Shown here piece by piece: positions 30,678 to 57,231 of a DNA stretch of 64,000 nucleotides. The notes beneath the pieces are model-generated. The model saw nothing but the letters and a program-made list of their open reading frames with translations, ran no database searches and was not told where the DNA came from. Position numbers and translations under genes: made by a program. The stretch is from Ignavibacteria bacterium (GTDB lineage: Bacteria > Bacteroidota > Ignavibacteria > Ignavibacteriales > Ignavibacteriaceae): contig JAFLBV010000002.1 in NCBI GenBank assembly GCA_017302895.1, forward strand, positions 1,054,001 through 1,118,000, read 5' to 3'. Every line of letters begins with the position of its first letter. Within the stretch, counting starts at the first letter, position 1.

Positions 30678-30692
30678 AAAAATTTCAAACTT

Positions 30693-30848
30693 CAGCCCTC
30701 AGCCTTCATTGATTCATCCTTCAAATTTCAGCCCTCAGCCTTCATTTATTCAGCCTTCAATTTTCTGCCCTCAGCCTTCATTTATTCAGCCTTCAAATTT
30801 CAGCCCTCAGCCTTCGTTTACTCAGCCTTCAATTTTCTGCCTTATTTA
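30693..30848. repeat. 36-bp tandem repeat with alternating variants
   Basis: The core CAGCCCTCAGCC or CTGCCCTCAGCC recurs at 30693, 30729, 30765, 30801 and 30837, exactly 36 bp apart. Copies 3 and 5 carry the CTGCC variant and copies 2 and 4 CAGCC, implying a 72-bp duplication on top of the 36-bp unit. One frame is open through it but there is no independent sign of coding. The last partial copy runs into the stop codon of the hydrolase gene. Confidence 0.85.
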
Positions 30849-37389: not shown

Positions 37390-37530
37390 GTATTAAGTCC
37401 TTGACATAAGTTTTAACCAACCCCTGCGGCGAAATATGGGTGTGGCAGCTATGAGCTCTGATCTATGAACTATGAGCTGATCGCTAATACTCCGATGAAT
37501 TGACAAAAATAACACCTCATATCTAAAAAA

Positions 37531-37680
37531 AAAGCCCTTTAGGGCGACATATGGATAGAATTCCGGCGCCCAAACTTCAAAAAAGCCCTTTAGGGCGACA
37601 TATGGGTAGAATCCCGGTACCCAAACTTCATAAAAGCCCTTTAGGGCGACATATGGGTAGTACTATAGCAACTCTTCCCT
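37531..37680 (+). repeat. Left REP-like array, three units of 51 bp
   Basis: The core AAAGCCCTTTAGGGCG recurs at 37531, 37582 and 37633, exactly 51 bp apart. Each is followed by ACATATGGGTAG (ATGGATAG in the first) and, in the first two, by a GAATyCCGG / CCCAAACTTCA spacer. GCCC/GGGC forms a hairpin. The last unit is interrupted by the transposase 3' end. The stretch 37390-37530 before it holds no gene. Confidence 0.9.
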
Positions 37681-38109
37681 ATCATAACCGTAGGCTTTGT
37701 AAAATCTTTTCCTCTCCGACATCGTACTCTCTTCCAAATGATGCACTTCCTGATTACGAATATAATTGTGAATTCTGTCCAATTCAGAATGACCAATTGA
37801 GAATGCAGCATAACCTTCTTGCCAGGAAAAATGCCCGTACAGAAACTTCTTTTCATTGATGAACTTCGCAGAATTTGCCTTTATGTCTCTAATCAGTTCT
37901 GATACACTTTGAGACGGATTTAAACCAAGCAGGATATGAAGGTGATCTTCTACTCCATTGATTTCCAGCATCTTATGTCCCTTGTTCGAAACAATTCCGG
38001 TGATATATTTTAAGACTTCCTGCCGAAAGATTGATTTTAGAACCTTTTCCCGTTCTCTAACACTAAATACAATGTGAATATACATTTGTGAGAATGTTTT
38101 GCTCTGCAT
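37663..38109 (-). CDS. IS200-like Y1 (HUH) transposase, RAYT-like
   Basis: Single-strand transposase of 148 aa in the Y1_Tnp family. The metal-binding HUH motif is His56-Leu57-His58 in VEDHLHILLGL and the nucleophile is Tyr116 in RIHNYIRNQEVHH. Conserved IHIVFSV near the N-terminus and FSWQEGYAAFS near residue 95 are typical of the short Bacteroidetes branch of this family. The reading frame is intact, with an ATG start and TAG stop, so it may be active. REP-like hairpin repeats flank it on both sides in inverted orientation, pointing to a REP-mobilising (domesticated or semi-domesticated) role rather than an ordinary insertion sequence. No tnpB is present. Confidence 0.92.
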   Translation of the reverse strand: MQSKTFSQMYIHIVFSVREREKVLKSIFRQEVLKYITGIVSNKGHKMLEINGVEDHLHILLGLNPSQSVSELIRDIKANSAKFINEKKFLYGHFSWQEGYAAFSIGHSELDRIHNYIRNQEVHHLEESTMSERKRFYKAYGYDREELL

Positions 38110-38180
38110 AAAATTCCCAAAATTATTGATTACAAAATATCAATATATTTTCTTCCTATCATATAATTTACACATATGCC

Positions 38181-38424
38181 ACCCTAAAGGGCTCTTTTGG
38201 AATTGGGTGTCTCGGTGCTACACTCATGTCGCCCTTACGGGCTTTTGTTATGTTGGTTGCCGGGAATCTGCCCACATATCGCCCTAAAGGGCTTTTTTGG
38301 AATTGGGTGCCACGGTTCTACACATATGTCGCCCTGAAGGGCTCCAATCCCCCCTCACTGCGAAAATCTGCCTGATCCGCGTGTATCTCTGCGTCCCCTG
38401 CCCACATATCGCCACAAAGCCTCA
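38181..38424 (-). repeat. Right REP-like array, four units of 50 bp plus a degenerate fifth
   Basis: Hairpin cores of the type GCCCTAAAGGGC lie at 38181, 38231, 38281 and 38331, 50 bp apart. In minus orientation they have the same layout as the left array (ATATGTGTAG, then CACCCAATTCC). Loops vary (TAAA, TTAC, TGAA) while the GCCC/GGGC stem is kept. A decayed copy lies at about 38399-38422 after an intervening CTGCGT-type repeat. The rest of 38425-38703 has no gene; it holds a candidate promoter. Confidence 0.85.
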
Positions 38425-56589: not shown

Positions 56590-56720
56590 TTTTTGTCCAA
56601 ATTTCTTATTTCCTGAGTGCAATTTATGCATATCAGTTTTACGGGCAAATTAAAAATATGTTCCATCCGGTTTTCGTTGATTACTAAATTCCAAAAACAC
56701 CGCAGAGTATACCGGGAGGG

Positions 56721-57227
56721 GAATAAACCACAGAGCACACAAGTATGCAAATAAACCACAGAGCACACTGAGTTCACAGAGAAAGGAATAAAATTACTCT
56801 GTGCTCTCTGTGTGCTGCAATCGTCAACGAATTGAATATTTGGCCCCGTCAGGGGTCTCGTTTGGGTAGCAATCGGCAACGAATTGAAAATTTGGCCCCG
56901 TCAGGGGTCTCGTTTGGGTAGCATTCGTCAACGAATTGAATATTTGGCCCCGTCAGGGGTCTCGTTTGAGTAGCATTCGTCAACGAATTGAATATTTGGC
57001 CCCGTCAGGGGTCTCGTTTGGGTAGCAATCGTCAACAATTGAATATTTGGCCCCGTCAGGGGTCTCGTTTGGGTAGCAATCGTCAACAATTGAATATTTG
57101 GCCCCGTCAGGGGTCTCGTTTGGGTAGCAATCCGGTCACCTCAAATTCTCTGCGTAACTCCGCAAAATCTGCGTGAATCCGCGTCCTAAAAAATCTCTGT
57201 GATCTCCGTGTGCTCTGTGGTTTATTA
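56721..57227. repeat. Intergenic repeat island: inverted AATAAACCACAGAGCACAC ends around a REP-like array
   Basis: ATAAACCACAGAGCACAC occurs at about 56723 and 56750 and in inverted form at about 57208-57225. Between them lie CTCTGTGCTCTCTGTGTGC, the six-unit hairpin array (56821-57138) and a CTGCGTAACTCCGC / ATCTGCGTGAATCCGC stretch. No gene is supported in 56590-57231. Confidence 0.85.
56821..57138 (+). repeat. REP-like tandem array, six units of 51-52 bp
   Basis: The core GGCCCCGTCAGGGGTCTCG begins at 56842, 56894, 56946, 56998, 57049 and 57100 (spacings 52, 52, 52, 51, 51). Each core is followed by TTTGGGTAGCA (one unit has TTTGAGTAG), and ATTCGTCAACGAAT- or ATCGTCAACAATT-type sequence precedes most of them. 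GGCCCC/GGGGTC forms a hairpin, and ATTCGT/ACGAAT forms a second small one. The period and the GGGTAG motif match the arrays at 37531 and 38181, though the hairpin sequence differs. Confidence 0.95.
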
Positions 57228-57231
57228 GTCT

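Follow-up and report, generated by a model that had tools for sequence, protein, structure and literature searches.

The window analysed here, a stretch of 64,000 nucleotides from an Ignavibacteria bacterium (genome G000), carries a tandem array of hairpin units with no transposase gene near it, which raises the question of how the array came to be there and which enzyme, if any, moved it. An earlier sequence-only reading had rightly noted that a local transposase is absent, and had regarded these units and the arrays around a transposase gene at 37.7 kb as divergent subfamilies of one mobile repeat. We propose, with a probability of roughly 77%, that the array is a REP-like, non-autonomous repeat array whose units would serve as substrates for a single-strand HuH/Y1 transposase with its gene on another contig of this genome, at C5:60865-61311.

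The array occupies positions 56817 to 57132 of the window on the + strand, with GCAATC at either end, and consists of six tandem units with spacings of 52, 52, 52, 51, and 51 bp. The TRF result (period 52, 6.1 copies, 96% matches) and the positions of the hairpins bear out the six units of 51-52 bp that had been read from the letters. Each unit has the hairpin GGCCCC-GTCA-GGGGTC (one G.T pair), then TCGTTTGGGTAG, then a spacer of 23-24 bp; this order had been recognised, with a spacer given as 25 bases. The hairpin and its tail form the unit cores, all on the + strand, at 56842-56869, 56894-56921, 56946-56973, 56998-57025, 57049-57076, and 57100-57127, the first position of each being the start of the hairpin. 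They were identified with R1, a covariance model of the hairpin and GGGTAG built from both the GGCCCC family and the GCCC family of the 37.7-kb gene, together with the hairpin positions read from the sequence. R1 finds the window units at E values around 5e-8 (5.1e-8 for unit 1; 1.7e-6 for unit 3). Unit 3 has GAGTAG, and the GGGTAG core attributed to every unit is found in the other five. AATATTT or AAAATTT stands 5' of the hairpins, and GTAG lies 8 nt 3' of them. The mini-palindrome ATTCGT-CA-ACGAAT, said to occur in each unit, has its perfect form in two of the spacers, at 56923 and 56975, and is imperfect in the others. Direct reading of the spacer at 56870-56893 (+ strand) gives CAATCGGCAACGAATTGAAAATTT, which resembles the spacer CAATCGGCGAACAATTGAAAAATT of the arrays on contig C5. 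The whole array is set within another type of dispersed repeat (CACAGAG.../CTCTGTG..., TCTGCGTGAATCCGCG; window positions 56700-56815 and 57150-57230), the length of which varies between sister species. A 36-bp tandem repeat in 4.4 copies (TTCAAATTTCAGCCCTCAGCC...) is found elsewhere in the window, at 30684-30841.

Further copies, for which the sequence-only reading had suggested a search, are present across the genome. R1 gave at least 126 matches at E<=1 in 3.98 Mb, at about 37 places and with both families taken together, a lower bound because 150 of the 730 candidates were scored; about 30 units of the GGCCCC family (family A) were found with the covariance model besides those of the window. 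The exact window hairpin has one further genomic site. A BLAST search of the genome with the array as query matched C5:60563-60861 (E 2.9e-60), C1:133204-133453 (E 2.3e-31), and C1:131005 (131 kb; E 1.1e-6). The spacing of units clusters genome-wide at 47-57 bp. Repeat copies lie at the contig ends of C1, C2, C5, and C6, and since assembly breaks fall in such arrays, the copy counts are lower bounds. A hairpin-less remnant also recurs, in which the tail GTCATGTATGGGTAG directly follows the preceding GGGTAGAG and the spacer, 5' arm, and loop are missing (L011 near 1486-1522, i.e., C1:131 kb; L123 945-985; L009 2310-2350 and 2610-2640; several in L156); at the L123 locus the sister species retains the full second unit. 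This dispersal bears on a rival account of the array, a plain minisatellite that grew from a single ancient hairpin copy through local slippage or unequal crossing-over, without a transposase. The 96% identity of the units fits local homogenisation, but copies at about 37 places speak against such an origin.

Five PF01797 genes are encoded in the genome, four of them of one type with hairpins at the flanks of each. The question whether each subfamily has its own transposase is answered by the distinct stem at the flanks of each of these four tnpA genes: GGCCCC at C5, GCCC at C2 (the 37.7-kb gene) and C1, and CCCCG with CGTAG at C4. The gene at C5:60865-61311 encodes an intact Y1 (HuH) transposase of 149 aa (Y1_Tnp, PF01797). 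The C5 arrays on both sides of the gene point inwards: one stops 18 bp short of the Y1_Tnp domain match, and inverted units lie beyond the gene. That the hairpin unit of the window, with a similar spacer, surrounds a transposase gene on another contig is further evidence against a minisatellite. In the GGCCCC family, the tnpA start codon is at most a few bases away from the last GGGTAG of the upstream array (GGGTAA in the sister species G003) in three genomes (L025 1480-1490; L156; L163), and a unit so placed could affect translation. The fifth PF01797 gene (G000:C3:504119-504598; L028, L166) is of another type; its upstream repeats, GGAGCGACAATCGTCCCGATTGTCC, recur elsewhere, and its counterpart in G003 has an in-frame TGA.

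The 37.7-kb gene of the window (37663-38109, - strand; Pfam PF01797, E=2e-28) encodes a 148-aa subclass-1.2 TnpA that is related but non-cognate. TRF and the covariance model place its own GCCCTTTAGGGC hairpin arrays on one side at 37528-37660 (+ strand), with GGGTAG towards the gene, and, inverted, on the other side at 38169-38343 (- strand). The four TnpAs of this type have 49-67% identity to the C5 protein, and the two GCCC-family copies are closely alike. If these enzymes were not stem-specific, the 37.7-kb TnpA might have moved the window array, as had been suggested: it lies 19 kb away, is 66% identical to the C5 TnpA, and its repeats have the GGGTAG tail and an equal period. We consider this very unlikely, because each tnpA has its own flanking stem and the family-A spacer matches the C5 array; the GGCCCC family has a cognate enzyme of its own. 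The C5 TnpA, not the 37.7-kb TnpA with its GCCC hairpins, is the likely donor and mobiliser. Movement in trans, which the sequence-only reading had raised, is judged probable through this enzyme, which is flanked by GGCCCC hairpins here and likewise in G003. The two hairpin families belong to one repeat type from which they have diverged as subfamilies, and a separate transposase goes with each. Their likeness is not due to chance, as the R1 matches in this genome and their absence from a same-genus genome without the transposase show. The likeness of the window array to the 37.5-kb family is one of homology of layout: GGGTAG and the period of about 50 bp recur with other hairpins around other transposases.

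Related genomes provide additional information on the origin of the array. The orthologous intergenic region of G003 is without the array; its flanks are 92-94% identical, and the junction is not exactly placeable because they are themselves repetitive. On contig C13 of G003 the same transposase is found with the same GGCCCC hairpins, inverted on both sides, and in G002 such hairpins stand beside a partial tnpA at a locus orthologous to C5. Transposase and repeat copies are both present in G000, G002, and G003. G001, of the same genus, has no transposase and, with the covariance model, no repeat copies, which also speaks against a plain minisatellite. Among 80 genomes of the family, matches of the model R2 track the presence of the transposase (Mann-Whitney p 0.0013, kinship ignored); they also occur in 9 of the 23 family genomes in which tnpA was not detected. 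Other observations favour local growth. A five-unit 52-bp array at G003:C6:2988-3226 (L157) has a dispersed host repeat as its spacer (GGTTCCACGGAT...), which indicates that spacers can be captured locally with the period of about 50 bp kept, and unit number differs between the orthologous loci L123 and L159. Spacers can thus be host-derived, and plain recombination may explain part of the tandem growth. The array L206/L218 is common to both species; the other arrays compared differ. Clean empty sites for the unit ends were sought at several loci and none was found, the flanks being too repetitive to place the cut. An expansion of the minisatellite type is likely as the final amplification step, but the dispersed, tnpA-linked copies argue against it as the whole story, and as such we regard it as unlikely. 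The C5 system is the most likely source of the array, which would have moved in trans.

The hairpins might instead be kept for use by the cell, in transcription end, mRNA stabilisation, or as small RNA, with a domesticated transposase. The position of the array, between the gene of a DUF4835 protein and that of a T9SS-secreted BNR-repeat protein, both on the - strand, is compatible with this, and such roles are known for REPs elsewhere (according to literature cited in PMC6006769). However, the search for an intrinsic terminator-like site at the array found none, an Rfam search of the window gave no match, and the orthologous place in G003 lacks the array. We give this explanation hardly any weight.

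In their sequences, the C5 and 37.7-kb transposases match the TnpAY1 subclass 1.2, which is IS200-related (HuH motif DH[IV]H, WQ, Y---Q--HH, about 148 aa). The motifs are EDHIHIL, SWQEGYGAFS, and YIRNQEVHH in the C5 protein (149 aa) and EDHLHIL, SWQEGYAAFS, and YIRNQEVHH in the 37.7-kb protein (148 aa), with L as the third HuH letter of the latter, outside the published [IV]. Y--Q--HH is present in 84 of 88 related loci, and the HuH motif and catalytic Tyr align with those of the solved ISDra2 and IS608 enzymes. The agreement with the subclass of Quentin et al. 2018 extends to length (about 148 aa), DH[IV]H, WQ, Y--Q--HH, and a distribution in Bacteroidetes; the difference is that repeats were found here at most loci, whereas none are listed there. 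Subclass 1.2 was given as REP "no" and generally without typical IS200 end structures (PMC6006769). The automatic REP search of that study required GT[AG]G 0-2 nt 5' of the hairpin (PMC6006769), and was therefore blind to the present units. We attribute the "no" to a limit of that search and do not take it to place the present enzymes outside the subclass. In the open literature searched, no mention of subclass-1.2 repeats was found.

The system looks like a REP-like one with reversed polarity. It shares with REPtrons, in which class 2 enzymes (RAYT, TnpAREP) are associated with REPs, a HuH/Y1 gene, flanking inverted palindromic repeats, the GTAG tag, one repeat family per transposase, and repeats that are both dispersed and clustered (PMC2817692; PMC6006769; PMC8266576); here too, the gene is flanked by inverted repeat copies (C5, G003:C13) and the family is dispersed in the genome. 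It differs in that GTAG lies 8-10 nt 3' of the hairpin and not directly 5', in the enzyme, which is of subclass 1.2 (WQ, Y--Q--HH), and in the head-to-tail arrays with a period of about 50 bp where REPs form alternating BIMEs. Canonical REP membership was rejected on polarity, as the window units have no GT[AG]G 0-2 nt 5' of the hairpin. The name RAYT used in the sequence-only reading should be applied with caution, because the enzyme matches the IS200-related subclass 1.2 rather than class 2 and the tag is on the opposite side of the hairpin from that in REPs. Insertion sequences of the IS200/IS605 family (IS608, ISDra2; subclass 1.1) include the closest solved relatives of the enzyme, and the right end of IS608 has the order guide, hairpin, cleavage tetranucleotide (PMC5934647), matching the hairpin-then-GTAG order here. 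In contrast to them, no left end can be told from a right end in the present loci, which have nothing but end-like units in inverted arrays, and the TnpAs within one genome are few in number and have diverged (49-67% identity to the C5 protein). An IS200/IS605 element was rejected because there are four divergent TnpAs with different flanking stems and no near-identical multi-copy element. PATEs and other non-autonomous derivatives of IS200/IS605 also bear hairpins and are believed to be mobilised in trans by a TnpA of the IS200 type, as we propose for the present repeats. PATEs keep both IS ends, whereas here single cores of about 30 nt stand in tandem.

The association of tagged hairpins with this subclass extends to other phyla. 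The survey drew on another 80 loci taken from GTDB genomes and on 30 of the family to which this genome belongs (29 usable; L126 and L127 overlap systems already in the set). Across 112 subclass-1.2 loci from several phyla, the conserved unit is a 5-bp stem with a mostly GNA loop and a GACAT-N4-(G/A)TAG tail. Of the first 83 loci, 37 have hairpins with GTAG 8-10 nt 3' of them in their 1-kb flanks, 61 distinct hairpins in all, compared with 1 in the distal flanks of the same loci and a mean of 2.2 in dinucleotide shuffles. In an unselected tetramer-by-offset scan the top rank went to GACA at offset 0, followed by GTAG at offset 9. The pattern recurs in the 29 usable loci of the family. An alignment-based count of stem covariation is circular, perfect stems being preselected, and a tail-first test was used instead: an upstream stem with at least 4 of 5 pairs was found for 82 of 113 tails near the gene, for 0 of 19 tails far from it, and for about 9% in shuffles. 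When GTAG and ATAG tags are both counted, 67 of the 112 loci have tagged hairpins and the nearest units are orientated towards tnpA by 77 to 20, with inward units on both sides in 26 of the 67. The finder, which misses short or G.T-containing stems (L029 is one such case), gave no tagged hairpin in the other 45. Tagged loci are scattered over the whole transposase tree, and the unit spacing of 47-57 bp recurs in unrelated loci. This tight tie to subclass-1.2 genes in other phyla also argues against a minisatellite. The loops show a strand bias on the GTAG strand, with 40 GNA against 4 TNC. GNA loops form stable DNA mini-hairpins, and that they favour the DNA strand with GTAG argues against a cellular use of the hairpins. 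Thirty class-2 Y1 loci of the same genome family, taken as a control, follow the canonical REP order instead: CTAC comes immediately 3' of the stem, which puts GTAG immediately 5' on the complementary strand. The subclass-1.2 flanks, too, contain 15 hairpins in this canonical order, with CTAC at offset 0. A search for a guide 5' of the hairpin showed conservation of a single base, A at -1. One fold, with GACA-TGT pairing within the tail, was dropped, as variants inspected by eye do not keep the pairing. Four other Bacteroidota loci of the subclass (L071, L084, L095, L101) have long composite modules of palindromes on both sides that share one orientation, unlike the inverted arrays described here.

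From these features we infer the mobility, cleavage site, and function of the units. TnpA would bind the hairpin on the strand in which GTAG follows it, cut single-stranded DNA beside the tag, and paste unit-length pieces elsewhere, as IS200/IS605 TnpA does at the right end. GTAG is proposed to mark the cut because the hairpin-then-GTAG order matches the right end of IS608. As each unit ends in its own target-like tag, repeated insertion by GTAG could build head-to-tail arrays of about 50 bp, and unequal recombination may then homogenise the copies, giving near-identical units such as those of the window. On balance we think it probable, if only just, that subclass 1.2 provides the enzyme for a distinct family of REP-like systems in several phyla. 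The units of these systems would be similar to IS200 right ends standing alone (5-bp stem, GNA loop, GACAT-N4-GTAG) and would multiply as monomers of about 50 nt into head-to-tail arrays, their stems diverging with the enzymes. A transposase subclass published as lacking repeats would thereby gain a partner repeat and a substrate that can be tested, and the tag of a REP-like system could then also stand on the opposite side of the hairpin, which bears on the origin of domesticated REP transposases from IS200/IS605 enzymes. GTAG-tailed hairpins, many of them in Bacteroidota-type genomes, would become annotatable and assignable to an enzyme.
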